A stretch of DNA of 64,000 nt, from positions 1 through 64,000 of the forward strand of contig CAMNRM010000021.1 in assembly GCA_946553025.1 (NCBI GenBank). The letters run 5' to 3'. The notes under the pieces are model-generated. The model was not told where the DNA came from and searched no databases. It was given only the letters and a program-made list of their open reading frames with translations. Source of the stretch: an uncultured Clostridium sp. Lineage in GTDB: Bacteria > Bacillota > Clostridia > Lachnospirales > Lachnospiraceae. A program made the position numbers and the translations under genes. This document shows positions 23,761 through 40,020 of the stretch, piece by piece (within the stretch, counting starts at the first letter, position 1; each line of letters starts with the position of its first letter).

Positions 23761-23777
23761 TTGGCATGAAAATTGCT
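23761..23777 (+). promoter_or_regulatory. Sigma-54 promoter P1
   Basis: TTGGCATGAAAATTGCT has GG at 23763-23764 and GC at 23775-23776 with exactly 10 bases between, the canonical -24/-12 form. It lies 112 bases before the 3-hydroxyacyl-CoA dehydrogenase. TGAC-type half-sites follow it at 23827, 23835 and 23851, within the leader. Confidence 0.85.
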
Positions 23778-23804
23778 AAAATATATTGTGAAAACATCTT
23801 AATG

Positions 23805-23856
23805 GCACAGTGGCATAGCAGCATAATGACGCAGTGACATAACAACATTATGACAC
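23805..23856 (+). repeat. Imperfect repeats carrying TGACAC-type half-sites downstream of P1
   Basis: Three TGAC-based half-sites (TGACGC, TGACAT, TGACAC at 23827, 23835, 23851) lie in imperfect ~24-27-bp repeats in the leader. They match the half-site found near the other sigma-54 promoters. A downstream enhancer position is unusual but possible for sigma-54 activators. Confidence 0.45.
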
Positions 23857-23888
23857 AGTACATGGAAACAACGAAAAGGAGAGGTTTT

Positions 23889-24845
23889 ATGAGAAACCAA
23901 GATGTGACACAATGGAAGGTAGCCGTTTTGGGTGCCGGGAGTATGGGGCAGTGTATCGCGCAGTTTATGGCGATGAAGGGGCATGAGGTATTTTTATATA
24001 ACCGAACCCCGGCAAATTTAGAAAAGGCCATGGTACAGATAGAAAATAATCTGCATACCTTGGTGGGGCTGGAGCAGATTTCCTTTGATCAGGTGGCAGA
24101 AACCCTGGCACGGATTACCGATAGCAGTGATCTTAAAGCATCAGTGGAAAAGGCCGATATCGTAATTGAAAATCTTGCCGAGGTTGAGGAGGTGAAGAAA
24201 AACGTTTTCCGGCAGTTGGATGAATATTGTGCGGAAGATGTAATTCTCTCGAGTGATACCTCAACGATGAATATTTTTTCTTTTTTAACGATATCTCATC
24301 CCGAACGCCTGCTTATTACGCATTTCTTTAATCCCGCCCATGTGATGCCGTTAGTGGAACTGGTGCGGGGGCCTGAAACTTCGGATGAGGTTGTCCGGGT
24401 GACGAGAGCGTTTTTAGAAAATACCGGGAAGGAAGTTGCCGTGCTGAATAAGTGCGTTCCCGGATTTATTTTAAATCGAATTACCTTATCCGTATTCCGT
24501 GAAGCGATGCATCTTGTGGAGGAAGGCGTGGCAAGCCCGGAGGATATCGATAAGGCGATTGTTTCCACCTTTGGCCCGCGCTATGCTTTTGAGGGGCCGT
24601 TTGGGCTGAGTGATTTTGCGGGGATTGATATTTATGAACGGCTGGCTACCCTGCTTCCGCCGGTTCTCTGTTCTTCGACCGAGTGTCCGAAGCTTCTGCA
24701 TGAGATGACGGCACAGGGGAAGCTTGGCGTAAAGTCGGGAGATGGTTTTTATCATTATGAGGATGAAAAAGCTGCCCGGCGGGAGAGGGATACGAAGATT
24801 ATCAGGATGATTGCGGCGATCCGCGATGTGCAGCAGGGGCGGTGA
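23889..24845 (+). CDS. 3-hydroxyacyl-CoA dehydrogenase
   Basis: The enzyme oxidises a 3-hydroxyacyl-CoA to the 3-keto form with NAD. It has 318 residues starting at ATG 23889 after AAGGAGAGGTTTT; an in-frame ATG at 23850 has no such site. The N-terminal Rossmann motif is VLGAGSMGQCIAQFM. The family signature HFFNPAHVMPLVELVRG contains the catalytic His. The C-terminal domain (FGLSDFAGIDIYERL) is the dimerising helical domain. The length is normal for the monofunctional HbdH/FadB2 type. Sigma-54 promoter P1 lies 112 bases upstream, and the MFS gene follows after 7 bases, so they form one operon. Confidence 0.93.
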   Translation: MRNQDVTQWKVAVLGAGSMGQCIAQFMAMKGHEVFLYNRTPANLEKAMVQIENNLHTLVGLEQISFDQVAETLARITDSSDLKASVEKADIVIENLAEVEEVKKNVFRQLDEYCAEDVILSSDTSTMNIFSFLTISHPERLLITHFFNPAHVMPLVELVRGPETSDEVVRVTRAFLENTGKEVAVLNKCVPGFILNRITLSVFREAMHLVEEGVASPEDIDKAIVSTFGPRYAFEGPFGLSDFAGIDIYERLATLLPPVLCSSTECPKLLHEMTAQGKLGVKSGDGFYHYEDEKAARRERDTKIIRMIAAIRDVQQGR

Positions 24846-24852
24846 GGCAGGC

Positions 24853-26166
24853 ATGAAACATTTAGAGCTGAAGCGTACAGAACAGAAGTGCACAGAGCTG
24901 AAGCATACAGAACAAAAGCGTACAGAGCAGGAAAGTATAGGAGAAAGCACAGGGCTGAAACGTGCAGAATCAAAAAGGCTGGTGCTTGGCGGGCTTTTGA
25001 TGATTTTTGCCTATGGGTTGAGCAATAATATCGTCGCCTACTACATTACCCCGGTTACCGAAAGCTTAGGTTACACCAGGGCCGCCTTTAATTTTTGCTT
25101 TACTTTGATGTCGGTGGTAAGCTTTCTGACCGCGCCGCTCTACGGTTGGCTGTTTATCAAGGTTCCTGTCCGCAGGATTATTTTGCTGGGCGGAGTAATC
25201 GGCGCAGCCTGTTTTGTGGGATATTCCTTTTGTTCATCTATTGCAGCATTTTATGCTGTGGGAATTATTCAGGGTGCAGTGCAGAACGGAAGCACAAACA
25301 TGGCTGCGGTGGTGCTGATTAACCGCTTTTTTGACGAGAAACACAGCGGTTCGGCGATGGGTCTGGTGATGTCCGGGACGGGAATCTGCAGTATGATGAT
25401 GAGCGCGGTGCTTCCGATGCTGATTGAACGGCATGGATGGAGAAACGGCTACCTGCTTTGCGGCTTTCTCTGGGCAGCAGTGATGTTTGCGGCGTTTTTT
25501 CTGATTAAGGAGAATCCTTCTTCTGTCGGGGAGAAAAGGCAGAGCGAAAAGGAGAAACAGCAGGAGAAAAGCGCCGTCAGCGGTCTGACCTGCCGGCAGG
25601 CGCTTCATTGCGGGGGGTTTTACCTTCTGCTTGTCTGCGTGCTGATCTGCAATATTATCATGGTCTGTTCTCAGCACCTTCCGGCGTATTTTCAGGATGT
25701 GGGACTGTCCGGTGTGCAGTCCGGGCGGGTGATGATGGTGTTCAGCTTAGGGCTTATTGTCTGGAAAATTCTCTTAGGACAGTGTTATGACCGCTTAGGG
25801 GCGATTCCCACCGTTATTTTGTCCTATGTGTCCTTTATGCTTGGGATGTGGACGCTGTCTTTGGGGGCAAAGTGGGCATTAATTGCGGGATCGTTGTTGG
25901 CTGCCCTGGGAATCGCCTCCTCGACGGTGCTTTTTCCCCTGATTACCCGGAAGGTTTTTGGTTCAAGGGAATATGCACCGATCTGGGGCAATATTTCCAT
26001 GGCGGTTGCCTTTGGCGTTGCGGTGGGCTCTCCGATCTGGGGTTTATTTTATGACCATTTTGGAAGCTACCGCCCTGCTTTTTGGGGAGCGCCGGTGCTG
26101 TTGGGCGTAAATCTGGGGCTGCTGGTGATGCTGATGAAGAAAGAATATTATACCGATGCCGGATAA
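24853..26166 (+). CDS. MFS transporter with repeat-bearing N-terminus
   Basis: The protein has 437 residues with about 12 membrane helices and the layout of major-facilitator carriers of the OFA/monocarboxylate-like type. A cytoplasmic loop after helix six is rich in Lys, Glu and Gln. The start ATG 24853 follows GTGAGGCAGGC and gives an unusual hydrophilic N-terminus of ~38 residues made of two copies of a 10-residue unit (ELKRTEQKCT, ELKHTEQKRT). That is a 30-bp DNA repeat at 24865-24924. It probably imports the acid or amide substrate of the cluster. Its last codons form half of the terminator hairpin at 26159. Confidence 0.88.
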   Translation: MKHLELKRTEQKCTELKHTEQKRTEQESIGESTGLKRAESKRLVLGGLLMIFAYGLSNNIVAYYITPVTESLGYTRAAFNFCFTLMSVVSFLTAPLYGWLFIKVPVRRIILLGGVIGAACFVGYSFCSSIAAFYAVGIIQGAVQNGSTNMAAVVLINRFFDEKHSGSAMGLVMSGTGICSMMMSAVLPMLIERHGWRNGYLLCGFLWAAVMFAAFFLIKENPSSVGEKRQSEKEKQQEKSAVSGLTCRQALHCGGFYLLLVCVLICNIIMVCSQHLPAYFQDVGLSGVQSGRVMMVFSLGLIVWKILLGQCYDRLGAIPTVILSYVSFMLGMWTLSLGAKWALIAGSLLAALGIASSTVLFPLITRKVFGSREYAPIWGNISMAVAFGVAVGSPIWGLFYDHFGSYRPAFWGAPVLLGVNLGLLVMLMKKEYYTDAG

Positions 26167-26193: not shown

Positions 26194-26207
26194 CAGTAAG
26201 TGAATGA

Positions 26208-28304
26208 TTAACTATCCAGGGCATTTACATCAATCTCAAATTCCTCAAGCTTCCGGTAAAACGTCCTCCGGGATATGCCGAGATAAACGCTGGCTTCCGA
26301 ACGGTTCTGGTCACAGGCAGCCAGTGCTTCTAAAAGGGCTTCCCGGGTAATATTTTTGCGTTTTTTGGATTTTGACGCCGAAGGGGAAGCAGAAGCGGGC
26401 AGTGCAGGCCCGGGGGTTTCTGTGCCGTAAGATGCAGGAGCAGACGCAGAACCAGGCAGTGCGGCTCGGGAGGTTTCTGTGCCGTAAGGTGTCGGAGCAG
26501 ACGCAGAACCAGGCAGTGCGGTTCGGGGGGTTTCTGTGCCGTAAGGTGTCGGGGCAGACGCAGAACCGGGAAAGCCAGGCAAGGTATCTTTTTGGGGGGC
26601 TGCAGAAGATGAAATACTGTCCTCGGCTTTTGGGCGGCAGCGGTCGGGGATATTGTCGAGGATGTATTCGGGGAGAATCATATCGCCGGGGTAAAGCTGG
26701 ACGATACATTCCATCAGGTTTTGCAGTTCGCGGACATTGCCGTACCAATCCAGGTTTTGAAGCAGTTCTTTGGCCTGGGGAGAAAAGCGCATAATATTGG
26801 GCTTTTCAATCCGCTGGGAAATGCTGCGGATAAAATGTTCCGCCAGAAGGACGATATCGTCCCGCCTTTCCCGCAGGGGCAATAAATATAATTTCATCGT
26901 GCTGAGCCGGTAGTAAAGGTCTGCGCGGAACAGCTTCTGTTCAATCATATCTTCAATATTGGCATTCGTTGCCGCGATAATGCGGACATCCACTTTAATA
27001 TTTTTCGTGCCGCCCAGGCGCATTAGCTGTTTGGTTTCCGTTACCCGAAGCAGCTTGGCCTGGAGATCTAAGGGCATTTCTCCAATCTCATCCAGGAAAA
27101 TCGTGCCGCCGTTAGCCAGTTCAAATTTTCCGATATTTCCGTTTTTTCGTGCGCCGGTAAAAGCGCCGTTTTCATAGCCGAATAATTCGCTTTCCACCAG
27201 GTCTTTGGGCAGAGCGCCGCAGTTTAAGGCGATAAAGGGCTTGCCCCGGCGTGCGCTGGCATTGTGGATGGCCTGGGCGAACACATCTTTTCCTGTTCCG
27301 CTTTCTCCCAGAATCATAATATTGCTGTCCGTCTGTGCCATGCGCTGTGCCTTTTGAATCAGGCGCTTTAGCTGGGTATTTTTTCCCACAATATCGTCAA
27401 AGGTTTTAATGGCACCGTTGGCAACCTGGCGGGAGAGTTCGGCGGTCATCTTCTGCGGGGTGGTAAAGTAAAAGACCACGCCGTGAGCGTTGATCATCGG
27501 CTGGTTAAAGGCATCCGTGGAGGCCAGGAGCTCGACCGTTTTTCCCTGGCAGGTGACTTCTAAGGGCTGGTTGGCGATAACACGGTGGTTTTTCACAATG
27601 TCCCACAGGGCTTCATTTGCCGGAAGCGGATCAATCAGGGATTCCACCGGTTCATAGTAGATCTGCATGGGCGGAATTTCCAAAATATTAAACAATTCAT
27701 CATTATAGTAGGTCGCCAGGTTCTGCCCGGAGTTGCTCATCATGTTGTCAATGGAGAGGATGCCTTTTCCGCTGCGCTCGTAGTACATGGTGGCAATATT
27801 ATTAAACTGCAAAGTAATCATCATATCGTGTGCCGTTCCCCGGATCATGGTCAGGTAGTCGTCCCATGCGTTTTCTAAGGTGGTAATGATGCCAAGGCCG
27901 CATTCTTCCATCTGATCGTAGGGCTCATAGGGGCTTAAGATGCTGATGGGAGCGTAGTAAATGGCATAGTTTTTCAGGGCGGGAAGTTCGTTCTCATCGC
28001 CGACGGTGCACAGGCTTTCGCGCCCGATAATGCCCTGGCGGACGGCATTGTGACCGACTTCCTTCCAGTTGCTTCCGGCGCGGATGCCGTCTTTGAGGTA
28101 GTGCTCTAAGGTGTGGTTTTCGCGGGCGAAGAGATCTAAGAGAAGGCCGTCACGGGAAAAAAGGCCCATGGCATAGTGGCTGCTGGAACTTAGGGAAATG
28201 GTTTTACTGATGTAGCGCCAGATAAAGGTGTAGAGGCGGGAAAGGGTTTTTCGCTCCTGTTTAAGGATGTCATAGGATACGTAGCGGAAGGAATCTGTAG
28301 TCAT
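26208..28304 (-). CDS. Sigma-54-dependent enhancer-binding activator (AcoR/DhaR-like), regulator of the cluster
   Basis: The protein has 698 residues. I start at ATG 28304, preceded on the minus strand by AAAGGAGTG; an upstream in-frame ATG at 28355 lacks one. The N-terminal ~300 residues look like a GAF/PAS-type sensing region and carry no receiver domain, so a small molecule rather than a kinase is the likely signal. The AAA+ domain has Walker A GESGTGKDVF (~335), the sigma-54 contact loop GAFTGA (~380) and Walker B GGTIFLDEIGEMP. The C-terminus is a Fis-type helix-turn-helix (NRSEASVYLGISRRTFYRKL). Between AAA+ and HTH lies a linker with three 19-residue tandem repeats. Four sigma-54 promoters nearby are its likely targets. 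Confidence 0.95.
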   Translation of the reverse strand: MTTDSFRYVSYDILKQERKTLSRLYTFIWRYISKTISLSSSSHYAMGLFSRDGLLLDLFARENHTLEHYLKDGIRAGSNWKEVGHNAVRQGIIGRESLCTVGDENELPALKNYAIYYAPISILSPYEPYDQMEECGLGIITTLENAWDDYLTMIRGTAHDMMITLQFNNIATMYYERSGKGILSIDNMMSNSGQNLATYYNDELFNILEIPPMQIYYEPVESLIDPLPANEALWDIVKNHRVIANQPLEVTCQGKTVELLASTDAFNQPMINAHGVVFYFTTPQKMTAELSRQVANGAIKTFDDIVGKNTQLKRLIQKAQRMAQTDSNIMILGESGTGKDVFAQAIHNASARRGKPFIALNCGALPKDLVESELFGYENGAFTGARKNGNIGKFELANGGTIFLDEIGEMPLDLQAKLLRVTETKQLMRLGGTKNIKVDVRIIAATNANIEDMIEQKLFRADLYYRLSTMKLYLLPLRERRDDIVLLAEHFIRSISQRIEKPNIMRFSPQAKELLQNLDWYGNVRELQNLMECIVQLYPGDMILPEYILDNIPDRCRPKAEDSISSSAAPQKDTLPGFPGSASAPTPYGTETPRTALPGSASAPTPYGTETSRAALPGSASAPASYGTETPGPALPASASPSASKSKKRKNITREALLEALAACDQNRSEASVYLGISRRTFYRKLEEFEIDVNALDS
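26398..26568 (-). repeat. Three 57-bp tandem repeats in the activator linker
   Basis: Three 57-bp units each code for variants of LPGSASAPTPYGTETPRTA, forming a flexible Pro/Ser/Ala linker between the AAA+ domain and the DNA-binding domain. The unit number may vary between strains. Confidence 0.85.
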
Positions 28305-28335
28305 AATGGGCACTCCTTTATTTTTTTTCGTGTTG

Positions 28336-28418
28336 TGACACGTAAGCTGTGTCATGTGTCATGGTTTGTAGGTTTGCGTGTTGGTGTGTTGTGACAATTA
28401 TAGCATGAAACTGTGTCA
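28336..28418. promoter_or_regulatory. Probable activator binding sites (UAS) for P2 and the regulator gene
   Basis: TGACAC (28336-28341) and GTGTCA (28349-28354) form an inverted repeat with a 7-bp spacer, with another GTGTCA at 28356-28361. A second pair is TGACA (28392-28396) and TGTCA (28414-28418). The second pair brackets a minus-strand TATAAT (28402-28397), a possible -10 for the regulator gene, so self-control is plausible. The sites lie ~70-155 bases upstream of sigma-54 promoter P2, a normal enhancer distance. Confidence 0.65.
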
Positions 28419-28488: not shown

Positions 28489-28505
28489 TTGGCATGGGAT
28501 TTGCT
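28489..28505 (+). promoter_or_regulatory. Sigma-54 promoter P2
   Basis: TTGGCATGGGATTTGCT has GG (28491-28492) and GC (28503-28504) with exactly 10 bases between. It is 109 bases before the DUF6282 gene and drives it away from the divergent activator gene. Confidence 0.9.
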
Positions 28506-28613: not shown

Positions 28614-29504
28614 ATGGCAGTAAGGAATAAGCCGCTTGGAAGGATTGACGGGAAGGTGATTGAGGAACTCTGGAAGGAAAGTGTGGATATGCACATTCAT
28701 CCGGGGCCGGATTCGCTGGCGGAGCGTCCGTTGGACAGCATTCAGATAGCGCAGCTGGCGCAGAGTGCGGGGATGAAGGGGATTGTACTTAAAAGCTTTA
28801 CGTATAATACGGCCTCGGATGCGTTTTTGATTGAGAAGAATATTACGCCGGATTTACGTGTGTTTGGCAGTGTGGTTGTCGGCTATACGACGACGGGCGG
28901 GCTGGATTATGCGGCGGAAACGATTGAGGCGATGGCAAAGATTGGCGGTAAGGTGGTTTGGTTTCCGGCGATGGATTCCCTGTATTGCCGGAGTTATCTT
29001 GGAAAAGAAGGGGGAATTTCCATTCTTAATCAGGACGGGAGTTTAAAAAAAGAAGTAGATGCGATTTTAAAGGTGGCAAAGGAGTATAACTTGGTGGTTT
29101 GCTCCGGGCATATGTCGTATGAGGAAAGTACGAAGATGTTTGATGCGGCGATAAAGATGGGGATTACGAAGATGGTCGCCACGCATCCGCTGGCGGGACT
29201 GAGCAGGTTTACTTTGGATGAGATTAAGGAACTGGCAGATAAGGGTGTGTATATTGAACATGTTTACGGGACGCTGATGCCGCGGCTGGGAAATATGGAC
29301 CCGAGTGACTATGTGGACTGCATAAAGATGGTTGGTGCCGAGAGGAGTTTGATGGGGACGGATTTGGCACAGGTCTGGGATATGGACCCGGCGGCGGGAA
29401 TGCGTCATTTTATCGCCATGATGATTCAGTTTGGCTGTACGCCCGAGGAAGTGGAATGGATGTGCAGGAAGAATCCGGCGAAGCTTTTGGATATTGAAGA
29501 TTAG
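28614..29504 (+). CDS. DUF6282-type metal-dependent hydrolase
   Basis: The protein has 296 residues in an amidohydrolase-like TIM-barrel style. Possible metal ligands are the DMHIHPGPDS motif near the N-terminus (H-x-H), VCSGHMSYEES, MVATHPLAG and the late Asp in LMGTDLAQVWD. The family is uncharacterised as far as I know; the ligand pattern suggests hydrolysis of a cyclic amide, lactone or ester. It is the first gene after sigma-54 promoter P2 and has AAGGAGGATGATTT before ATG, so it is probably an early step of the pathway. The substrate is unknown. Confidence 0.82.
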   Translation: MAVRNKPLGRIDGKVIEELWKESVDMHIHPGPDSLAERPLDSIQIAQLAQSAGMKGIVLKSFTYNTASDAFLIEKNITPDLRVFGSVVVGYTTTGGLDYAAETIEAMAKIGGKVVWFPAMDSLYCRSYLGKEGGISILNQDGSLKKEVDAILKVAKEYNLVVCSGHMSYEESTKMFDAAIKMGITKMVATHPLAGLSRFTLDEIKELADKGVYIEHVYGTLMPRLGNMDPSDYVDCIKMVGAERSLMGTDLAQVWDMDPAAGMRHFIAMMIQFGCTPEEVEWMCRKNPAKLLDIED

Positions 29505-29558: not shown

Positions 29559-30542
29559 ATGAAGGATTTAAAGGATAAGAAGTTTGGATTTTTAGGATGG
29601 GGAGCGATTGGTTTTCCGATTTGTTATGGACTGGTAAAGAGCGGCTATTCGGTGAATCTTCCGGTTTACCGCAGAGAAAGCGCACAGAGGCATGGTTTTT
29701 CCGGGCTGGTGCCGGATGAGAAGGCAAAGACGGAGGCGATTGACTGGATGCTGGAAAACGGCGGCATTGCGGCGGCTTCGCAGAGGGAGCTTTTAGAAAA
29801 CAGTGATATTTTGGTATTTTCTCTTCCGAAATCACAGCAGGTCGAGGATGTGGTTTTAGGGAAGGACGGCGTGATGGAAGTGTGTAAGCCGGGAACGGTG
29901 ATTATCGATATGACGTCTGCGGATGCAGTCAGCACGAAAAAGCTTGCGGCACTTCTGGAGGAGAAGGGAATTGAACTTTTAGATGCTCCGGTCAGCGGCG
30001 GCACAAGCGGGGCGGCGGCACAGACCTTAACGATTATGTGCGGCGGGAAGAAAGAAACCTTTGACGCCATGAAGCCGGTTCTGGATGTGATGGGAAGCCC
30101 GGAAAAGGTGACCTACATGGGGCCGAGCGGTTCCGGGGATATGATTAAGTGTGCCAATAACTTCCTTTCGGCCTGCTGTGCCGCAGCGACGACGGAAGCG
30201 GTGGCTGTGTGTGCCAAAGCCGGGATTGACCCGCACATGGCGGTACAGGTGATTGGCACAAGCGGCGGAACAAACCATGCGGCGACCACGAAGTTTCCGA
30301 ATATCGTATTTCCCGGAAAGAACTGGAATTTCTCTCTGGGGCTGATGAGTAAGGACGTGGGGCTGTTTAATTCAGCCAGCAAGGATATGGGAATCCCTTC
30401 CCTGTTTGGCAATTTAACGGCGCAGATTTTAGCGATTCCCAAGGCAGAAGAAGGGGATGACGCGGACTGTGTTTATATGCAGAAGCTGTATGAGCGCTGG
30501 GCGAAGGTGGAACTTTGCGGGATTGATTCAAAAAACGAATAG
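29559..30542 (+). CDS. NAD(P)-dependent beta-hydroxyacid dehydrogenase
   Basis: The protein has 327 residues of the 3-hydroxyisobutyrate / 2-hydroxy-3-oxopropionate (tartronate semialdehyde) reductase family. The Rossmann motif is GFLGWGAIGFPICYGL (G-x-G-x-x-G with Trp in the second place, slightly unusual). The substrate-binding signature is DAPVSGGTSGAAAQTLTIM, and the catalytic Lys lies in GDMIKCANNFL. It is second in the P2 operon, 54 bases after the DUF6282 gene, with AAAAAGGAGAGAGAGCA before the start. It would interconvert a hydroxyacid and its semialdehyde; which one is not known. Confidence 0.9.
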   Translation: MKDLKDKKFGFLGWGAIGFPICYGLVKSGYSVNLPVYRRESAQRHGFSGLVPDEKAKTEAIDWMLENGGIAAASQRELLENSDILVFSLPKSQQVEDVVLGKDGVMEVCKPGTVIIDMTSADAVSTKKLAALLEEKGIELLDAPVSGGTSGAAAQTLTIMCGGKKETFDAMKPVLDVMGSPEKVTYMGPSGSGDMIKCANNFLSACCAAATTEAVAVCAKAGIDPHMAVQVIGTSGGTNHAATTKFPNIVFPGKNWNFSLGLMSKDVGLFNSASKDMGIPSLFGNLTAQILAIPKAEEGDDADCVYMQKLYERWAKVELCGIDSKNE

Positions 30543-30614
30543 CTGCAGTACCGGTTTGTGCTGGTGGAGTGTGGAAGAAAATGCCCGTGAAGCATGAACT
30601 GAATGGAGGAAATG

Positions 30615-31784
30615 ATGATACCTAAACCATTGGATGGAATTTTCGTTGTGGAAATGGGAACGACAGAGGCGGAGGGGATGGCGTCGCTTTTGCTCTCGGA
30701 TTTTGGGGCAGAGGTTGTTCGGCTGGAATTTCCGAAAAACGGTGAAGAAGCTCCGAAAAACGATGAAGAAGCTTCTGGTTTACCGGAGAAGGACGCCCCA
30801 GACAGGACGAGTGCAGAAGAAGCTTCTTTGTACCGCCTCTGTGATCGGGGAAAGAAAAGGGTTTTATGTGACCCGGGACTGACCGAGGACAGGAAATGGA
30901 TAAGGAAGCTTTTACAGCGGGCGGATGCGGTGATAACTTCTGTGCCGGATGTGGAGATGGCACAGTGGAATTTGAATATTGACACATTATGCAGCAAAAA
31001 TCCGGGACTTGTGTATGCTTCGGTGACCGGCTTTGGGCAGACAGGGCCTTATGCCCATCATTATGTTTACAATGACGCAGTGATTCAGGCAGAATCCGGG
31101 TTTATGTCCGTTACCGGAGAAGAGGGCGGGGAGGCGGTGCGCAGCGGCAGTGATTTTGCGGCATTTGCCGGGGCCGCTCATGCCTGTATTGCGGTTTTGA
31201 TGGCTTTGATTGAGGCAAAAAAAACCGGGCGGGGAAGAAGGATCGATGTGTCAATGATGGATTGTCTGCTGTACGGGTTTGAAAATCAGTACAGTATCTA
31301 TCTGAAATCCGGGAAGATTCCAAAACCGATGGGCAATCGCTATGCACTCTCCGCTCCGGTGGGAGATTTCCTCTGCCGTGACGGGAAACGTCTGATGATA
31401 TCGGTGGCGACGGAGATGCAGTGGAAGAATTTTGCTGAAGTTCTTGGGCACACCGAATGGCTGGAAAACCCGGATTATCGGAATGTAAAGGAACGGTTAA
31501 GGCATGTTAAGCCGTTGTGTGAAGAGGTTTCGGCAGCATTGATGGAACATGACAGCGAAGAACTGATGGAACTTTTGCAGACAAGAAGCTGTATTTACGG
31601 AAGGATTAATGATTTTGCCGATGTGGTCCGCCATCCCCAGGTAAAGGCCAGGCAGATGATTATGGAAGTCGAGGCACCTGACGGCACAAAGTTTAAGATG
31701 CCCTCCCACCCGATTGTTATGGACGGCTGCAAGCCTGCAAAAACGGTGATTGAGCGCCCGGTTTTATATTGGGAATGGGAATAG
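30615..31784 (+). CDS. Class III CoA-transferase (CaiB/BaiF family), with acidic insertion
   Basis: The enzyme moves CoA between carboxylic acids. It has 389 residues from ATG 30615, which has the best spacing to GGAGGA; ATG 30612 and ATG 30603 are alternatives. The catalytic Asp is in the conserved VSMMDCLLYGFENQ region, and ASVTGFGQTGPYAHH is the usual substrate-loop motif. After EVVRLEFP there is an insertion of ~35 residues with the repeated pattern PKNGEEAPKNDEEAS, where relatives have a short loop. The insertion is a recent-looking DNA repeat (about 30735-30825). It ends the P2 operon; a second CoA-transferase follows under P3. Confidence 0.88.
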   Translation: MIPKPLDGIFVVEMGTTEAEGMASLLLSDFGAEVVRLEFPKNGEEAPKNDEEASGLPEKDAPDRTSAEEASLYRLCDRGKKRVLCDPGLTEDRKWIRKLLQRADAVITSVPDVEMAQWNLNIDTLCSKNPGLVYASVTGFGQTGPYAHHYVYNDAVIQAESGFMSVTGEEGGEAVRSGSDFAAFAGAAHACIAVLMALIEAKKTGRGRRIDVSMMDCLLYGFENQYSIYLKSGKIPKPMGNRYALSAPVGDFLCRDGKRLMISVATEMQWKNFAEVLGHTEWLENPDYRNVKERLRHVKPLCEEVSAALMEHDSEELMELLQTRSCIYGRINDFADVVRHPQVKARQMIMEVEAPDGTKFKMPSHPIVMDGCKPAKTVIERPVLYWEWE

Positions 31785-32007
31785 ATTTTTCTTCGGTGTG
31801 ACAATGACGGATGGAGTGGGACGCAGAAAAAGGCTGTGTCTGAGGTGAACTGCGGCAAAATAGAGTGGTTGTGACAAATTGAAGCAAATGTGACAAAAAT
31901 AACCGCAGTGTGACATTAAAGTATACATACGGCACAAATGATACAGAGAGAAAAGATTAAAATGTAAGGAAAGAACAGCAAAAAATCATTACAAAGCCGG
32001 AAAAATT
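31785..32007 (+). promoter_or_regulatory. Upstream region of P3 with phased TGTGACA sites
   Basis: There is no gene here. TGACA, each preceded by TG, occurs at 31799, 31872, 31891 and 31911. The last three are 19-20 bp apart, about two helical turns, and lie ~95-135 bases upstream of sigma-54 promoter P3. This matches the half-site found at P2 and P4, so it is a likely enhancer. Confidence 0.6.
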
Positions 32008-32024
32008 TTGGCATGATTCTTGCT
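32008..32024 (+). promoter_or_regulatory. Sigma-54 promoter P3
   Basis: TTGGCATGATTCTTGCT has GG (32010-32011) and GC (32022-32023) with exactly 10 bases between. It lies 161 bases before the second CoA-transferase gene. The leader in between is mostly a 42-bp tandem repeat. Confidence 0.9.
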
Positions 32025-32044
32025 TTTATAAATAGGCAGGAAGC

Positions 32045-32161
32045 ACAAAAGACAGCAATAAAGTAGAAAGCTAAGAGGAAAGAAGTACAAAAGACAGCAA
32101 TAAGGCAGAAAGCTAAGAGGAAAGAAGTACGAAAGACAGCAATACAGCAGAAGTCTAAAAC
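32045..32161 (+). repeat. 42-bp tandem repeat in the P3 leader
   Basis: There are 2.8 copies of a 42-bp purine-rich unit starting ACAAAAGACAGCAATAA, at 32045-32086, 32087-32128 and 32129-32161. The unit contains the Shine-Dalgarno-like stretch AAGAGGAAAGAAG, so it may have grown by slippage of ribosome-binding-site-like sequence. It is non-coding on either strand in my reading. Confidence 0.8.
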
Positions 32162-32184
32162 AAAACAGAAAAGGAGAATAAGAG

Positions 32185-33411
32185 ATGAGCAAGCCATTAG
32201 AAGGTGTTCGGATTTTGGATTTCAGTCAGTTTATGTCGGGGCCGATGTGTACGTTATTATTATCGGATTTTGGTGCGGAGGTGATTAAGATTGAGAATCC
32301 GCCGATTGGCGACAATACCCGCTACGGAAATATTATTGACCGGGATGTGAGCAGTCATTTTGCCACGAGGAACCGGGGGAAGAAGAGCATTGTCCTGAAT
32401 ATGAAGGATGAGGAGCATAAGAAGTTATTTCTTAAACTGGTAAAGACGGCGGATGCAGTGATTGAAAATTATAAGCCGGGAACCATGGAAAAGTTTGGGA
32501 TTAATTATGACGTGCTGAAAGAGATTAATCCGAAGATTGTGTTTACCTCGATCTCCGGTTACGGGCAGAATGGTCCCTATGCGGGTCATGCGGCGTTTGA
32601 CCAGACCGTACAGGCGGAGTCGGGCATGATGAGCATTACCGGGCCGGAAGGCGGGGAGCCGGTAAAGAGCGGCGGCTCGATTGCCGACTATTCCGGCGGG
32701 CTGATGGCATGTATCGGTACGCTGATGGGGATTTTGGAGGCACAGAAAACCGGGCACGGGCGCAGGGTGGATGTGTCGATGATGGATTCGCTGATTTTCT
32801 GCCTGGAGAACCAGTTCAGTTCTTATTTAAAGACGGGTAAGGTTCCGAAACCCATGGGGAACAGTTACGCTTCGAGTGCTCCTATCGGTGCCTACAAGTG
32901 TAAGGACGGCAAGTCCCTGATGATTACGGTGGGGACGGACGCACAGTGGAAAACCTTCTGTGAGGCGCTGAATCAGCCGCAGTGGTATGCGAATGAAAAC
33001 TGGGCGACGATGACGCAGAGGGCTGCGGATTATAAGGCCATTGATGCCGAGGTCAACCGGGTATTTGCCCAGTTTACCAGCGAAGAAGTAGCCGATATGC
33101 TGTTTAAGGGCAAATGTGTTTACGGAAAGATTAATGATTTTGAAGCGGTGGCAAATCATCCGCAGGTGGCCTACAGGAAAACGATTGTTAATGCTTCCTA
33201 TGCCAACGGCGTTACCTTCCGCGTGCCGGGAAATCCTATCCTGATGAGCGATCTGGAGAGGGAAACCGAGTATACGGCAGCAGAACTGGGTGAGGATACC
33301 TTTGAAGTTTTGGGCGAGGTTGCCGATCAGGAAACCCTGCACCAGATGTTTGACCCGGTGATGGAGAAGGTGGCACAGGCACAGAAGGCGATTTACGATA
33401 AGTCGAAATAA
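32185..33411 (+). CDS. Class III CoA-transferase (CaiB/BaiF family)
   Basis: The protein has 408 residues. It starts with the family hallmark GVRILDFSQFMSGPMCT. The catalytic Asp lies in the conserved GHGRRVDVSMMDSLIF region, and SISGYGQNGPYAGH is the glycine-rich loop. It is clearly related to the CoA-transferase at 30615 but lacks that protein's acidic insertion. It is the first gene after sigma-54 promoter P3, with AAAAGGAGAATAAGAG before ATG. It likely activates the substrate acid or recycles CoA from a product acid. Having two such enzymes suggests two acids are exchanged in the pathway (inference). Confidence 0.93.
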   Translation: MSKPLEGVRILDFSQFMSGPMCTLLLSDFGAEVIKIENPPIGDNTRYGNIIDRDVSSHFATRNRGKKSIVLNMKDEEHKKLFLKLVKTADAVIENYKPGTMEKFGINYDVLKEINPKIVFTSISGYGQNGPYAGHAAFDQTVQAESGMMSITGPEGGEPVKSGGSIADYSGGLMACIGTLMGILEAQKTGHGRRVDVSMMDSLIFCLENQFSSYLKTGKVPKPMGNSYASSAPIGAYKCKDGKSLMITVGTDAQWKTFCEALNQPQWYANENWATMTQRAADYKAIDAEVNRVFAQFTSEEVADMLFKGKCVYGKINDFEAVANHPQVAYRKTIVNASYANGVTFRVPGNPILMSDLERETEYTAAELGEDTFEVLGEVADQETLHQMFDPVMEKVAQAQKAIYDKSK

Positions 33412-33535: not shown

Positions 33536-34135
33536 ATGGCAAGGTTAATCGAGAGCGGGAAAATCGAGGAAGTGATTTTTGCCAGGTTTGAGCCGGGCGA
33601 GGATATTTTAAAGGCATTGTACGATATTTGCAGGGAAAAGGACATTAAGACCGGGATTATCTTAGACGGGAGCGGGAGTGCAGTAGATTTTACTTACCAG
33701 CATTTCCCCATCAATCCCAAACTCTGCCCGACCAATGTTTCTATCGGAACGATGCACGGGAAATGCGAGATCAGCCTTCAGGGGACGATTGGGTCTACGG
33801 TCTGCAATCTTGCCGAGGGTGACACGCCGGATGCTGTCGTGGAGAGGATGTTCCCGACGGTTCCCGGTTTATGGGAAGGGCCCGCGGATAAATGGCCCAT
33901 GGTCGGCTGCGAATATGGGCCAGGAACGCCTTATATCCATGCGCATTGTGTGGCAAGCAATGCGGATTACACCGTATGCGGACATCTGATGCCCGGGACG
34001 AAGGTTGCCTCCGGCGATCCTTCCAAGCCGTCGCATTTTACGGTGATTATTGCCAAGGTCAGCGGCGTACAGCTGCAGGCGACGATTGATCATAAGATTG
34101 GGTTTTATCAGAATCTGGTAAAGACCGAAAATTAG
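33536..34135 (+). CDS. PPC domain (DUF296) protein
   Basis: The protein has 199 residues and is a single PPC/DUF296 domain (FEPGEDILKALYDICREKDI, then the conserved GIILDGSGSAVDFTYQHF and GHLMPGTKVASG). In plants this domain is part of AT-hook proteins; in bacteria it stands alone and its role is not established. Conserved His residues (IHAHCVASN) could bind metal. It is in the P3 operon between the CoA-transferase and an aldolase, and has AAGGAGAAAACAGAG before ATG. Confidence 0.88.
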   Translation: MARLIESGKIEEVIFARFEPGEDILKALYDICREKDIKTGIILDGSGSAVDFTYQHFPINPKLCPTNVSIGTMHGKCEISLQGTIGSTVCNLAEGDTPDAVVERMFPTVPGLWEGPADKWPMVGCEYGPGTPYIHAHCVASNADYTVCGHLMPGTKVASGDPSKPSHFTVIIAKVSGVQLQATIDHKIGFYQNLVKTEN

Positions 34136-34154: not shown

Positions 34155-34973
34155 ATGCGTAATTTATTTGAGAAAAATCCTTTCCTGGAAAAAGTGAACC
34201 GGGGCAAGGCTCCCGTGGGATTTTTCAATTATCTGCGGGATACGGCGGTGCTGGATATCGCCGGAACCGTGGGGTTTGATTTTGTGGTGATTGACAATGA
34301 GCACACGGCGATGGAGAGGGAAACGACGGAAAAGCTGATTCTGGCAGCGGAGTTAAACCAGGTAGTTCCCTTTGTCCGGGTGCCGGAACTGATTCCCTAT
34401 CTGATGCGCAACTATATGGAAATGGGTGCAAGGGGGATTCTGGTTCCCCATATCCGCAGCGGCATCGAGTGCAGAATGGCCCAGGAAGCCCTTCGCTATC
34501 CGCCGCACGGCAATGCAAGCTGCTGCCGGTCGAACCATGCGGACGGTTTTGAGGCAAAGAACTGGATGAAGTATTTAAAGCATGTCGAAGATCTGGTGTT
34601 TGTGCCAATGATTGAGGACCCGGAAGCGATTGATCACATGGACGAGATTTTAGACGAACTGCAGCCCGGGCGGGATATGGTGATGTTTGGCAAGGCAGAT
34701 TACGGTCAGTCCTGCGGTTCCTTAAATGCAGACGGGACGTTTACCTCGGAGGTTAATGAAGCCTATTTAAAGGTGATGGAATGCTGCCGGAAGAGGAATA
34801 TCGGCTTTATGGCGTGTCCGTCGGCGGGGGCAAACGGGCAGACGGCGGCGGATGTACAGAAGGTGATTGAGGACGGATGTTCCGCGGTTGTGTTAAACAC
34901 CGATCAGCTTACCCTGGCTGCGGCTTTTGGAAATATCGTAGGGCCATGTCTGGAACTGGAGATTAAAAAATAG
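34155..34973 (+). CDS. HpcH/HpaI-type aldolase
   Basis: The protein has 272 residues and belongs to the metal-dependent class II pyruvate aldolases (4-hydroxy-2-oxoheptanedioate aldolase type). The expected catalytic residues can be seen: His in VIDNEHTAM, Arg in PFVRVPE, metal-binding Glu in PMIEDPEAI and Asp in MFGKADYGQS. It would split a 4-hydroxy-2-oxo acid, often to pyruvate or a related oxoacid and an aldehyde. It is 19 bases after the PPC gene in the P3 operon and is probably the carbon-carbon cleaving step of this cluster (inference). Confidence 0.92.
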   Translation: MRNLFEKNPFLEKVNRGKAPVGFFNYLRDTAVLDIAGTVGFDFVVIDNEHTAMERETTEKLILAAELNQVVPFVRVPELIPYLMRNYMEMGARGILVPHIRSGIECRMAQEALRYPPHGNASCCRSNHADGFEAKNWMKYLKHVEDLVFVPMIEDPEAIDHMDEILDELQPGRDMVMFGKADYGQSCGSLNADGTFTSEVNEAYLKVMECCRKRNIGFMACPSAGANGQTAADVQKVIEDGCSAVVLNTDQLTLAAAFGNIVGPCLELEIKK

Positions 34974-35112: not shown

Positions 35113-35901
35113 ATGGATTTACAACTGCAGGGAAAAGTGGTCGCCATTACCGGCGGTTCGGAGGGAATCGGCTATGCGATGGCAGAGGCATTTGCCCGGG
35201 AGGGATGCAGGGTCGCGGTGTGCTCGCGCTCACAGGCAAAGCTTGATAAGGCACAGGCGGAGTTTAAGGAAAAGGGTTGGGATCTCTATGTGAGAAGTGT
35301 GGACGTCAGCGATTCCGATCGGCTGTACGGCTTTGTGGACGAGGTGAAAAAGGATCTTGGGCGCATTGACATCTGGATCAATAATACGGCAACAACGGTC
35401 GTAAAATCCATTCTTGAACTGGAACTGGAGGAATGGAACCGGATTATGCGCACGAATTTAAACTCCTATTTTGTAGGAACCCAGGCGGCAGGACGGGTGA
35501 TGAAGGAACAGGGCGGCGGCGTAATTATCAATGTGGCTTCTTTCGGCGGACTGATGCCCCCGATGTACCGCAGCGCCTATTGTACAAGCAAGTATGGAAT
35601 TAACGGTTTAACCCGGATGGCGGCGGCAGAGTTTGCCCCGTTTGGCATCCGTGTCAATGCCGTAGCCCCCGGAACCATTAATACCGCAATGCAGGCCGCC
35701 GCAGGGCGAAATGAAGAAGATGTTAAGCGCGTGGCGAAAAACTTTGCCCTTCACCGTGCCGGAGAGCCGGACGAGGTGGCAAAAGTGGCATTATTCCTGG
35801 GTTCGCACATGTCGTCCTATATTGACGGCGTCGTGCTGGAGTGCAGCGGCGGAAAGTTCCTGGCACAGGACTGCGATACCGCATGGCAGCAGAGGCGCTG
35901 A
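35113..35901 (+). CDS. Short-chain dehydrogenase/reductase (SDR)
   Basis: The protein has 262 residues of the classical SDR type. It has the cofactor motif TGGSEGIG, the NNTA variant of the usual NNAG motif, the catalytic Ser in NVASFGG and Y-x-x-x-K in YCTSK. It resembles 3-oxoacyl-ACP reductase-like or BaiA-like enzymes that act on hydroxy/keto groups of CoA esters or alcohols. It is in the P3 operon after a 139-base A-rich gap and has AAAAAGGAGGATGAGGC before ATG. The substrate is unknown. Confidence 0.92.
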   Translation: MDLQLQGKVVAITGGSEGIGYAMAEAFAREGCRVAVCSRSQAKLDKAQAEFKEKGWDLYVRSVDVSDSDRLYGFVDEVKKDLGRIDIWINNTATTVVKSILELELEEWNRIMRTNLNSYFVGTQAAGRVMKEQGGGVIINVASFGGLMPPMYRSAYCTSKYGINGLTRMAAAEFAPFGIRVNAVAPGTINTAMQAAAGRNEEDVKRVAKNFALHRAGEPDEVAKVALFLGSHMSSYIDGVVLECSGGKFLAQDCDTAWQQRR

Positions 35902-36001: not shown

Positions 36002-37321
36002 ATGCTGGGAGTGATAGGACTTATTTTAGCAATTGTCTTTTTAATTATTTTTGCCTACCGGGGGCTGGGGGCACTTCCTCTTGCTGTGGGCGGGGCATTG
36101 ATTGCCATACTTTTTAACGGGATGCCGGTTTATGATACCCTGGCCGGGCAGTTTGTGCCGGGTTATGCAAGTGCATTTACCAGCTATATGCTGCTGTTCG
36201 TCAGTTCGGCCTTTTATGCCAAGCTGATGGATGTATCCGGATGTGCGACTTCCATCGGCAATAAGTTTACCGAGTGGTTTGGCATCAGGCATGTGGTGCT
36301 GGTCGGCATTGTTATCGTCGGTATTTTAACCTACGGCGGGATTAGCTTATTTGTGGTTATCTACGCGGCAGCGCCGATTTTATACACCATGCTGAAAAAA
36401 GCAAATCTGCCAAGGCATCTGACCGTTATCTGTTTCAGTGCCGGTTCTTCTACCTTCTCCATGACCTGCCTTCCGGGTTCACCGCAGTTATCGAACCTGG
36501 TTGCCACGGAATACCTGGGGACAAGCCTGAATGCAGCACCGGTGATGGGAATTATCTGCGGTATTGTGATGTTTGTGCTCTGTGCTTTTTATGGCGAGTG
36601 GGCCTCCAAAAAGGCACGGGAGAGAAACGAAGCCTGGAGTTATCCGGCCAATGTCGATCCGAAAAACTACGAGGTCGATGCAAGCCAGCTTCCGGCGGCC
36701 TGGAAGGGATTTTTGACCATTATCTGCCTGATTGCCATTATCGTTGTGGGGAGTCATCGGGGGGTAAATGCAACCTTTATTGCCATTTTGGCGATGGTGA
36801 TCGGAAGCGTAATGGTTATCGTGCTGAATATTGACCGCTTTTTTGGCAAGGTGAAATGGCTGAAGCTGTTCACCGAGGGAATGACCAGCGGTGTAACCTC
36901 TATCGGCGGCATTGCAGCCATCCTTGGTTTCGGGGCGGTGGTAAAGGCTACACCGGCGTATCAGGATATTATTGACTGGGCGCTGGGGTTAAATATGAAC
37001 CCGCTTTTGCTTGCCGTTGTCGTTACCTGTATTGTCTGTGCGATTGCCGGCGGTTCATCTTCCGGGCAGCGCATTATGTATGAAACGATGGCACCGACCT
37101 TTATTGCATCCGGCGCAAACCTTCCGGTGCTTCACCGTCTGGTAGCCATTGCATCAGGTTCCCTGGATACCCTGCCGCACTCTTCGGGTCTGTTCCTGGT
37201 TTACGATTTGCTGGGGCTGACCCATAAGGACGCTTACCGCCACAGCTTTGCGGTATCGGTTGCTATTCCGTTGTTTGTAACGATTGCGGCTACGGCGATT
37301 TGTGTTATTGTTGGGGTTTAG
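36002..37321 (+). CDS. GntP-like carboxylate permease
   Basis: The protein has 439 residues with about 12 membrane helices. The layout and motifs (GGALIAILFNGMP at the N-terminus, ILTYGGISLFVVIYAAAPI in the middle, CAIAGGSSSGQRIMYET near residue 355) match the GntP/hydroxybutyrate-type ion-symporter family. It is the second transporter of the cluster, after the MFS carrier at 24853, and may import or export a hydroxyacid. The stretch downstream (37322-37468) is a purine-rich repeat with AGAAGAACAAAGA units. Confidence 0.88.
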   Translation: MLGVIGLILAIVFLIIFAYRGLGALPLAVGGALIAILFNGMPVYDTLAGQFVPGYASAFTSYMLLFVSSAFYAKLMDVSGCATSIGNKFTEWFGIRHVVLVGIVIVGILTYGGISLFVVIYAAAPILYTMLKKANLPRHLTVICFSAGSSTFSMTCLPGSPQLSNLVATEYLGTSLNAAPVMGIICGIVMFVLCAFYGEWASKKARERNEAWSYPANVDPKNYEVDASQLPAAWKGFLTIICLIAIIVVGSHRGVNATFIAILAMVIGSVMVIVLNIDRFFGKVKWLKLFTEGMTSGVTSIGGIAAILGFGAVVKATPAYQDIIDWALGLNMNPLLLAVVVTCIVCAIAGGSSSGQRIMYETMAPTFIASGANLPVLHRLVAIASGSLDTLPHSSGLFLVYDLLGLTHKDAYRHSFAVSVAIPLFVTIAATAICVIVGV

Positions 37322-37468: not shown

Positions 37469-38302
37469 ATGTCAGGACATCGCATTGATGAAACATGCCG
37501 CTATGAGGAGAACTTTACCATCACAAATTTTAATAAGATGATGGAGGGAAAGGTCGTTATCGTTACCGGAGCCAGCTATGGTATGGGCAAGAAAATGGCA
37601 GAGGTTATGGCGGAGCAGGGGGCAAAGGTGTTTGTTACTGCACGCGGGGAAGAAAAGCTGAATGTGGCGATTGCCGATATCAAGGCAAAGACCGGCGGCG
37701 AGATTTGCGGAATTGCTGCGGATTCCTCGAAGCCGGAGGACTGCAAGAAAGTATTTGACAAGGCATTAGAAGCTTTTGGGGATGTGGATGTATTGATCAA
37801 TAATGCCGGAAAAGGCGAATTGATTACCATTGATGCCGTGAGCGATGATATCATTGACCAGGTTGTTGATACCAATATGAAGGGGCCCTTATATCTTTGC
37901 CGCGAAGCTGTAAAATATTTCCTGAAAAAGGACAGCGGAAATATCATCAATATCTCTTCTGCCAACGGTGTTCGCCCGATGTGCGGCGCTGCTTACTGCT
38001 CCACCAAGGGCGGGTTAAACACCCTGACCAGGAACGTAGCCATCCGCTGCACCGGAACCGGAATCCGCTGCAACGCCGTTGCCCCGGGCCATACCCCAAG
38101 TCCCACCGCCTATGCGCATGATGACGGCGGCCCGCAGACCTTAGCTGAGGGTGTAATGAATGAAGTCCGCAACGCCCGCACTGTCCGCACCGTGCATCCA
38201 TGGGAGATCGACCAGGCTTATGCCGTTCTCTTCCTTGCCAGCGATATGTCCCGCTGCATTAACGGCGAAGTGATTACGGTTGACTGCGGCTGTTATTTAT
38301 AA
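37469..38302 (+). CDS. Short-chain dehydrogenase/reductase (SDR), second
   Basis: The protein has 277 residues. It has the cofactor motif TGASYGMG, the NNAGKGE motif, Ser in NISSANG and Y-x-x-x-K in YCSTK. An N-terminal ~30 residues (SGHRIDETCRYEENF) precede the normal SDR start. An insertion rich in Pro, His and Asp (PGHTPSPTAYAHDDGG) occupies the substrate-loop region, different from the SDR at 35113. It is the last gene of the P3 operon and has TTTCAGGAGGAAAAAGAT before ATG. Confidence 0.92.
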   Translation: MSGHRIDETCRYEENFTITNFNKMMEGKVVIVTGASYGMGKKMAEVMAEQGAKVFVTARGEEKLNVAIADIKAKTGGEICGIAADSSKPEDCKKVFDKALEAFGDVDVLINNAGKGELITIDAVSDDIIDQVVDTNMKGPLYLCREAVKYFLKKDSGNIINISSANGVRPMCGAAYCSTKGGLNTLTRNVAIRCTGTGIRCNAVAPGHTPSPTAYAHDDGGPQTLAEGVMNEVRNARTVRTVHPWEIDQAYAVLFLASDMSRCINGEVITVDCGCYL

Positions 38303-38455: not shown

Positions 38456-38605
38456 ATAGGATTACGAGGAAGTAACGAAGTGGATTCCGAGTTTCCTTTG
38501 ACAAAGTAATATGAATGGTAATCATTCTACCGGCATCCCGTGGAGGAAAAGCCGGAGAAGAAGATTTATGATTTTTAGGCCGATTCTTTAGGCGGCTGTA
38601 GCAGG

Positions 38606-38651
38606 AAAAAAGACGAACGAAGAGAGGAGAGGTTTTTTGTTCGTCTTTTTT
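38606..38651. terminator. Terminator hairpin, T/A-flanked on both strands
   Basis: AAAAAAGACGAAC (38606-38618) pairs with GTTCGTCTTTTTT (38639-38651). The flanking A and T runs allow use on either strand, so it probably ends the P3 operon and the convergent Rpn gene. A second hairpin without a T run lies at 38666-38709 (ATACAACAG...CTGTTTTGTAT). Confidence 0.8.
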
Positions 38652-38730
38652 GATTTCATTTTTTCATACAACAGCCCCTGGTTTGAAAAATACCGGGACT
38701 GTTTTGTATTCCATCAAAGACTGCTTTTAC

Positions 38731-39648
38731 TTACACTATTTGAAGTCCTGCAAGTTGTTTTATTTCTGAAATACTGAGGCCAGTATCCTCCGCTATTTCT
38801 TCAATCGTCTGTTTTCCTCTTTTCAATAATTTAAGTGCAGTTTCCTTATTTGCTTCATTCATGCCTTTTTTCAAAATTTTCCGTGCTTCTGTTTCAATCA
38901 ATGCTCCGCTCATCAAATCACCTACACCTTTCCGCACATTTTCATATTTCTGTGCAATTTCTTTAATCACATCGCCGGAGAGCTCTATGATTGTACGTTT
39001 GTCAAATGCCCCAATTATTTTCTGCTGTTCCAGTCCGTCAAGTCTTTCCAAAATTTTCTGATACTCTGCCTTTAATTCTGCCAGTTTCTGCTCATTGCTA
39101 TTATATTCCAGAAAACTTTTCTCATGTGAAAAAATATAAAACGGAATCAGCATCAGCAGGCTTTTTTCAAAAATATCATCAAGTGAATATGTCTGTACTT
39201 TCATAATTGGTATGTTATACTGTACTGTACCGCCTGGTGTAATAATAATATATTTCATTTTATCGGGTGTTTTTTGGTAAGTCCGAAGATACAGAACAGC
39301 AGTATTAGGAAATGTTACTGTTAGTGTTTCCTCTGTAACCTTGCCCTCATCAAGTGCTATCTGCGCATCATACTCAAAAAGCCTTATTGTGATTTTTCCG
39401 TCCGGTAAGCTGCTTTCACACTCAACATGGTATTTCTTTGGTATTTTCCCAAAAACCGTAAAATTCGTGTCGGTAATTCGTTCTTTATCCGCTTTGTCCT
39501 GCTGGTCTAAAAAATGTTCATTTGGAAAAAAACAGATCTCTTCTTTCCCAGTATATGTTTCATCGAAAATTTCATTGATTACGGGGATAATCAGTTTCCG
39601 GCAGTCATTTAATATGGTTCTGAAAACACTGTCATATATATTTGCCAT
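38731..39648 (-). CDS. Rpn family recombination-promoting nuclease / PD-(D/E)XK transposase-like protein
   Basis: The protein has 305 residues on the minus strand. I start at ATG 39648 because AAGGAAGG lies 8 bases before it; ATG 39654 is two codons upstream. The N-terminal ~200 residues resemble the Rpn/YhgA PD-(D/E)XK nuclease fold, with ITDTNFTVFGK followed by YHVECESSL as the possible Asp...Glu core; the usual Lys after the Glu is not obvious, so activity is uncertain. The C-terminus has an HTH-like EETGLSISEIKQL-type segment. It splits the catabolic cluster on the opposite strand and is probably an independent mobile insertion. Confidence 0.82.
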   Translation of the reverse strand: MANIYDSVFRTILNDCRKLIIPVINEIFDETYTGKEEICFFPNEHFLDQQDKADKERITDTNFTVFGKIPKKYHVECESSLPDGKITIRLFEYDAQIALDEGKVTEETLTVTFPNTAVLYLRTYQKTPDKMKYIIITPGGTVQYNIPIMKVQTYSLDDIFEKSLLMLIPFYIFSHEKSFLEYNSNEQKLAELKAEYQKILERLDGLEQQKIIGAFDKRTIIELSGDVIKEIAQKYENVRKGVGDLMSGALIETEARKILKKGMNEANKETALKLLKRGKQTIEEIAEDTGLSISEIKQLAGLQIV

Positions 39649-39846
39649 ATCCATTTCCTTCCTTAAATTTATGTCTTTATCATATCATTTTTTTATCTTA
39701 AATTCAAGAATTTCACAGTATTTCACATTATTTCTACTTGTAGCCGGTTGCATTTCATAAAAGGAATGGGCATAGCATTTGCATTAAGATGAAGAACATG
39801 TGTTTTTTGTGCCATAGTGTAAACTTGTTTTTTTACAGCATCAATA

Positions 39847-39882
39847 TGACACATAGATGACACAAAAAATAAAGCTGTGTCA
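39847..39882. promoter_or_regulatory. Probable activator binding sites upstream of P4
   Basis: TGACAC occurs at 39847-39852 and 39858-39863, and the inverted GTGTCA at 39877-39882. They are ~120-155 bases upstream of sigma-54 promoter P4. This is the same half-site as near P2 and P3. Confidence 0.65.
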
Positions 39883-40003
39883 TAAGGAAAAACCGGGGCA
39901 TCCAAGGAAAGAAAAAAGAAAAAAAGCAGAACAGGGTATAAAAAAGAATGTGGAAAAGAATAATCAGGCAGAAAATAATAAAATACAGGCACTGAATTAA
40001 AAT

Positions 40004-40020
40004 TTGGCACGGGATTTGCT
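40004..40020 (+). promoter_or_regulatory. Sigma-54 promoter P4
   Basis: TTTGGCACGGGATTTGCT-type sequence with GG (40006-40007) and GC (40018-40019) 10 bases apart, the closest of the four to the consensus TGGCACG-N4-TTGC. It is 41 bases before the first gene of the last catabolic operon. Confidence 0.92.

Follow-up and report, generated by a model that had tools for sequence, protein, structure and literature searches.

The window analysed here, a 64,000-nt stretch that makes up 1.3% of the genome of an uncultured Clostridium sp. (4.87 Mb in 126 contigs), carries a catabolic gene cluster in which four sigma-54-type promoters (P1 to P4) head four groups of genes around a single activator gene. 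The cluster belongs to a known kind of system and is a new example of such a switch; from its sequence, it very probably constitutes a one-activator sigma-54 regulon driving a CoA-ester catabolic pathway. It was compared with four relatives, namely a genus-mate (G003), a Flavonifractor metagenome-assembled genome (G724), G725 and G726 (a 'Clostridiaceae' record), which are fragmented assemblies, some of them named as metagenome bins. The promoters, the activator and the genes, with operons grouped by gene order, are as follows.

23761..23777, + strand: P1, sigma-54 promoter TTGGCATGAAAATTGCT, exact pattern match, heading the HCDH and MFS genes
23889..24845, + strand: 3-hydroxyacyl-CoA dehydrogenase-like protein (HCDH; Pfam PF02737/PF00725; start from AGGAG), P1 operon
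24811..26166, + strand: MFS transporter (PF07690), P1 operon
26208..28355, - strand: sigma-54 activator, 715 aa (sigma-54 interaction domain PF00158 at 237.7 bits, AAA+, Fis-type helix-turn-helix PF02954, intact GAFTGA)
28489..28505, + strand: P2, sigma-54 promoter TTGGCATGGGATTTGCT, exact match, counterpart in all four relatives
28614..29504, + strand: DUF6282 protein with weak amidohydrolase similarity, P2 operon
29559..30542, + strand: beta-hydroxyacid dehydrogenase (HIBADH-like), P2 operon
30603..31784, + strand: class III CoA-transferase (CoAT1; PF02515), P2 operon
32008..32024, + strand: P3, sigma-54 promoter TTGGCATGATTCTTGCT, exact match, counterpart in all four relatives
32185..33411, + strand: class III CoA-transferase (CoAT2; PF02515), P3 operon
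33536..34135, + strand: PCC-domain protein (PF03479), P3 operon
34155..34973, + strand: HpcH/HpaI-type aldolase (PF03328), P3 operon
35113..35901, + strand: short-chain dehydrogenase (SDR1), P3 operon
36002..37321, + strand: hydrophobic 439-aa transporter-like protein, P3 operon
37469..38302, + strand: short-chain dehydrogenase (SDR2), P3 operon
40004..40020, + strand: P4, sigma-54 promoter TTGGCACGGGATTTGCT, exact match, counterpart only in G724 among the relatives, where it has 4 half-sites
40061..40861, + strand: carboxymuconolactone-decarboxylase family protein (CMD; PF02627), P4 operon
40929..41864, + strand: MaoC/MFE-2-type hydratase, P4 operon
41892..43820, + strand: old-yellow-enzyme family flavoprotein (BaiCD/2,4-dienoyl-CoA reductase type), P4 operon
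43866..44717, + strand: metallo-beta-lactamase-fold hydrolase, lactonase-like (MBL), P4 operon

The four sigma-54 sites quoted in an earlier note on this DNA are all present on the plus strand (the fourth 17-mer starts with TT at 40004, its 16 quoted letters at 40005), and GG and GC lie 10 bases apart in each of them, as the note had said. Its range of 41-161 bases between site and gene comes close to our measurements from site end to start codon, which are 111, 108, 160 and 40 bases for P1 to P4 (the first value takes the start codon at 23889, chosen from AGGAG). Within the window, TGGCAYRNNNNTTGCT is matched exactly at these four sites and nowhere else; with up to two mismatches it has 23 matches versus 17.0 by chance, so that only the exact form is informative. 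A genome-wide scan, one of the checks suggested in the note, gave 15 matches to TTGGCAYNNNNNTTGCW (11 forward, 4 reverse) versus 3 when the reversed pattern was used as a control. The window accounts for four of the 15, all on the same strand as the genes that they precede; three more lie just 5' of likely genes (two by an activator gene on contig C6, one on contig C90), and the other eight are mostly intragenic, as judged by eye. A -24/-12 promoter of the GG-N10-GC type at operon heads, the hallmark of a sigma-54 regulon, is found here in four copies, and the consensus given for Clostridiales in the part of Nie et al. (2019; PMC6615313) drawn on here is TTGGCATNNNNNTTGCT.

The activator has the AAA+ sigma-54 interaction domain, the GAFTGA loop and the Fis-type helix-turn-helix by which enhancer-binding proteins are recognised. 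Its N-terminal region has no Pfam match at E values up to 5, a recognised sensor domain being usual in such proteins and not required, and its best PDB match reaches only E 0.55; one of the five orthologues gave a weak match to HVO_0513_N (E 0.17, with the first 320 codons aligned). The NCBIfam DhaR model aligns with residues 61-574 at 261 bits, to be read as a hint only against a cut-off of 551. Sigma-54 itself is encoded on contig C42 of the window's genome, unlinked to the cluster, and its gene was found in all five genomes.

A candidate operator upstream of the promoters

The regions upstream of P2, P3 and P4 contain clusters of a short half-site, which we consider a candidate for a shared upstream operator; there is none upstream of P1. 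The motif was first read as TGTGWCA from the four upstream regions of the window, and W was widened to H after one stretch of a relative (L023) had been seen. The half-sites of the window are located as follows.

28334..28418, + strand: candidate operator, five TGTGWCA half-sites, overlapping the activator gene start and extending toward P2
31797..31915, + strand: candidate operator, TGTGACA at 31797, 31870, 31889 and 31909, before P3
39808..39882, + strand: candidate operator, half-sites at 39808, 39847, 39858 and 39876, before P4
23803..23857, - strand: half-sites TGGCACA at 23803 and TGACACA at 23851, downstream of P1, a weak candidate operator because none lies upstream of P1

The first test in relatives covered six promoters of DUF6282 and CoA-transferase genes in stretches L021, L022 and L023. 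Five of them had at least one TGTGWCA nearby, and the sixth (L023, -9894) has TGTGCCA instead. We then considered 14 promoter regions from the five genomes, the window's four included. A motif-free count of 7-mers present in at least four of these regions placed TGTGTCA first, with 20 copies in 10 regions, followed by TGTGACA, TGTGCCA and CACAAAA with 10 copies each. The 14 regions hold 40 half-sites versus a mean of 1.75 and a maximum of 7 in 500 dinucleotide shuffles, and the window's four regions hold 13 versus a mean of 0.53 and a maximum of 6 in 2000 shuffles; the background is 0.14 per tile on average over 639 tiles. At least two half-sites are present in 12 of the 14 regions and none in the other two, P1 and the HCDH promoter of G003. 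When these two were omitted and two promoters picked blind (see below) were added, 39 of 47 TGTGNCA half-sites lay 55-210 bp upstream.

The four relatives contain 31 sites of the sigma-54 pattern, 24 of them distinct sites that were scored (among the seven outside scoring is the DUF6282 promoter of G726, already one of the 14 regions). At least two upstream half-sites occur at 10 of the 24, all of which head regulon genes, and none or one at the remaining 14. Eight of the ten had been known beforehand, and two were picked blind to the gene behind them: the hit on contig C65 of G725 precedes orthologues of HCDH and MBL, and that at C2:45097 of G724 precedes orthologues of CMD and MaoC, with the old-yellow-enzyme gene then following. 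These two blind promoters and the first test in L021 to L023 are the cleaner tests of the motif.

A second element, TGT-N10-12-ACA, occurs in 10 copies (the mean in shuffles is 3.2, and 4 in 500 contain as many as 10), although the half-sites themselves contain TGT and ACA. We did not adopt it as the operator, since it is confined to 4 of the 14 regions, but the activator may still be related to the clostridial class that uses it. Fifteen groups of Nie et al. have this element, whereas the regions studied here are characterised by TGTGHCA half-sites, present in 12 of 14 (compared with the part of PMC6615313 drawn on here).

The earlier note had also spoken of the one activator, which is true within the window and does not extend to the genome, where contig C6 encodes a GAFTGA activator and contig C85 a GSFTGA protein that we take to be of the LevR type. 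The C6 activator (within positions 1-16000 of that contig) has two sigma-54 sites beside it, both without TGTGWCA, and for this reason we judged it unlikely to regulate the cluster. A CdsR-like label for it rests on the adjoining gene, presumably, from its sequence, a cysteine desulfidase gene.

A probable single regulon and its alternatives

Several observations weigh against a single regulon with a common operator. The count over 14 regions and eight of the ten sites in relatives are partly circular, because the motif came from the window and was widened after L023. The spacing of half-sites is variable, the commonest adjacent pairs being four in the same direction at 19 and three divergent ones at 11. 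A palindrome, TGNCACA-N4-TGTGNCA with at most one mismatch, was rejected, as it has no match in the window and 8 in the genome versus 18 for the control, both strands counted. Same-direction pairs are not rare by themselves (17 in the window's own genome versus 12 for the control), and one of the seven in the window is intragenic. In favour of the regulon, none of the ten pairs outside the window is followed by a sigma-54-like site within 300 bp. At the level of the promoters, the 250 bp upstream of P1 and the G003 counterpart are both devoid of half-sites, and P4 has a counterpart only in G724 among the four relatives. The CMD gene of G003 and G725 lies inside a longer gene run, and that of G726 comes after an esterase-like gene; roughly 1 kb upstream of this CMD gene was found to contain neither a sigma-54-like site nor a half-site. 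The earlier note's regulon is supported in part: strongly as regards sigma-54 promoters under one linked activator, conserved in five genomes with a shared half-site, and less so for P1, which has no upstream half-site, and for P4, kept in one of four relatives. That the activator would sense a pathway molecule is a prediction of the note.

The alternative that survives best, although we consider it unlikely, is that P2 to P4 form the regulon and P1 is under other control, through another activator, through the weak leader sites downstream, or following loss of an enhancer where an amidase gene ends about 44 bp upstream. Besides the lack of an upstream half-site, this reading is favoured by the position of the downstream half-sites (+42 and +90) in degenerate repeats and by the amidase and aldo-keto reductase genes upstream, which are unmatched in the stretches of the relatives searched. 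However, the HCDH counterpart of G725, on a separate contig, has a sigma-54 site and three upstream half-sites, and the HCDH promoter of G724 has two half-sites close by. The HCDH orthologues of G724, G003 and G725 (65-78% identity) each have a sigma-54-like site just upstream.

It is much less probable that the TGTGHCA sites are bound by another regulator, for instance of the CRP/FNR type, and merely accompany the sigma-54 promoters. The CRP site is TGTGA-N6-TCACA, and TGTGA resembles its half-site; this geometry would require half-sites that face each other with their starts 9 apart, yet none of the facing adjacent pairs of the 14 promoters has it, and the half-sites follow the operons of this activator in five genomes and not the other scored sigma-54-like sites. 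Finally, that the four sites match by chance, with ordinary sigma-A promoters driving the operons, is hardly credible: although two-mismatch matches in the window are scarcely above chance, the exact matches are rare and clustered, their counterparts are conserved in relatives, and half-sites go with them.

Relatives of the cluster and known systems

The four orthologous activators share 64-79% identity with that of the window over the whole protein, and the GAFTGA loop and the helix-turn-helix core YLGISRRT are invariant across the five aligned sequences. Matches to the activator at E values up to 1e-100 were found in 2 of 11 genomes of the genus (the window's own and G003), and at E values up to 1e-120 in 1 of 397 genomes of the family and 1 of 392 of the order (overlapping samples, the window's own genome in each case) and in 3 of 400 genomes from the family to which the Flavonifractor metagenome-assembled genome belongs, G724 being the sole close orthologue among the latter. 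More distant activators, 40-44% identical, are encoded twice in G932 and once in G1051; CaiB-like genes lie near in two of these three stretches, one of which also has a MaoC-like gene, and none of the three gave an rpoN match. The window activator resembles those of G724 and G726 more closely than the one from G003, a member of its own genus, which suggests transfer, although the fragmented state of the relatives' assemblies calls for caution. With a G+C content of 0.456 in the window against 0.577 in L021, and with about 80% nucleotide identity to G724 over the four genes compared, the copy is not a recent one.

In G003 and G725, the activator gene is immediately followed on the same strand by an rpoN gene whose product has all three sigma-54 domains (L028:13779-17243 and L022:10001-13501, respectively). 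These two RpoN proteins share 75% identity, and their identity to the unlinked copy of the window's genome is 45-46%. The G003 assembly, which is 97% complete in 270 contigs and could lack genes, contains one rpoN match and twelve PF00158 matches. The activator has GAFTGA, whereas six further matches of at least 40 bits, in five open reading frames, lack it (five weaker ones, at most 31.1 bits, were left out). Since only one rpoN was found, and only one GAFTGA activator among the reading frames examined, sigma-54 may serve this pathway alone in G003. We propose tentatively, as somewhat less likely than not, that the cluster forms a self-contained sigma-54 module capable of transfer, whose fullest form, in G003 and G725, would comprise the enzymes, the operators and an activator-rpoN pair; the sigma-54 of G003 would be reserved for this one pathway, and the window's genome would borrow a distant sigma-54 (46% identical). 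A similar dedication of sigma-54 copies to one activator and gene set is described for Cereibacter (Rhodobacter) sphaeroides (RpoN1-NifA, RpoN2-FleQ and RpoN3-AprX), but that organism has four RpoN copies per cell, whereas the single rpoN found in G003 lies in a catabolic cluster (from a portion of PMC11999139).

The system resembles the Clostridiales regulons of Nie et al. in its consensus, Fis-type helix-turn-helix and GAFTGA loop, and in having the activator gene next to its targets and multiple upstream sites, the first usual and the second frequent in that survey, where 93 of 263 clostridial activators control two to six operons. The targets of YctR (crt-gntT-caiB-bcd-etfAB) and XcgR (cotY-gntT-bcd-etfAB) include caiB, gntT and other CoA-ester genes and, as here, combine a sigma-54 activator with genes for a CoA-transferase and a GntT-type transporter. 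Unlike these two, compared by gene content, the regulon genes described here include no acyl-CoA dehydrogenase or electron transfer flavoprotein gene that we could see, and do include DUF6282, PCC, CMD, old-yellow-enzyme and aldolase genes. None of the groups in Table 1 of Nie et al. shares this gene content, although the paper's supplement may list the activator (all from the part of PMC6615313 drawn on here). The portion consulted of a second sigma-54 survey (PMC12316311) has nothing on this cluster, and no description of it was recognised in the parts of the literature covered (this gene set, sigma-54 activators combined with CaiB, Flavonifractor, and rpoN by activators in Clostridia).

Predicted switch, pathway and neighbouring genes

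We propose that the 715-aa activator binds the TGTGHCA half-site clusters, most of which precede the -24 element by 55-210 bp, and loops to sigma-54 RNA polymerase parked at TTGGCAY-N5-TTGCT, where it would spend ATP to open the promoter. An effector would be sensed by the unclassified N-terminal region, and the operons would be induced together. Judging from the enzyme families, an organic acid is probably imported and activated by the CoA-transferases, then probably degraded through ene-reduction, hydration, oxidation, aldol cleavage and lactone or ester hydrolysis. The best PDB matches of the HpcH/HpaI-type aldolase are 2-dehydro-3-deoxyglucarate and related aldolases. The 439-aa hydrophobic protein, without a Pfam or NCBIfam match, we take to be a GntP/CitMHS-like transporter, a name that rests on its sequence. 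For the DUF6282 protein, PDB searches returned pentatricopeptide matches only, with no passing stretch, which we regard as spurious, and a literature search for DUF6282 found nothing.

The bai (bile-acid) operon contains genes of the old-yellow-enzyme, class III CoA-transferase, short-chain dehydrogenase and MFS families, and all four recur here. The scores obtained stay far short of the NCBIfam cut-offs, however, with 521.7 bits for the BaiCD equivalog (cut-off 825) and 145 for the bile-salt MFS transporter (cut-off 400). A bile-acid, acyl-homoserine lactone (AHL) or vitamin B6 pathway was rejected, family scores being sub-threshold only.

Several other features were observed in and around the cluster. 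In the leader that separates P3 from its first gene, a tandem repeat (period 42 bases) is present in three copies at 32031-32165. Between SDR2 and CMD, the minus strand carries a gene (38731-39654) that weakly matches the Rpn family; its place is occupied in G724 and G726 by the esterase-like gene, which was not found in the window. Directly past the cluster, positions 44865-46217 encode an MqsR-like toxin and an MqsA-type antitoxin fused to a SocA/Panacea domain. A Type IIG restriction enzyme-methyltransferase is encoded at 18065-21013, and two GH123 glycoside hydrolases, a transport permease and a histidine kinase/response regulator pair, at 6962-16748, probably form a separate sugar-use locus.

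With the promoter and half-site described here, an uncharacterised catabolic cluster of gut-type Clostridia gains a testable regulatory code and a defined gene set. This code can locate missing genes of the pathway, and did so twice in this work. Where rpoN follows the activator gene, as in two of the relatives, the Firmicutes offer an uncomplicated example of a sigma-54 that may be given over to one pathway.

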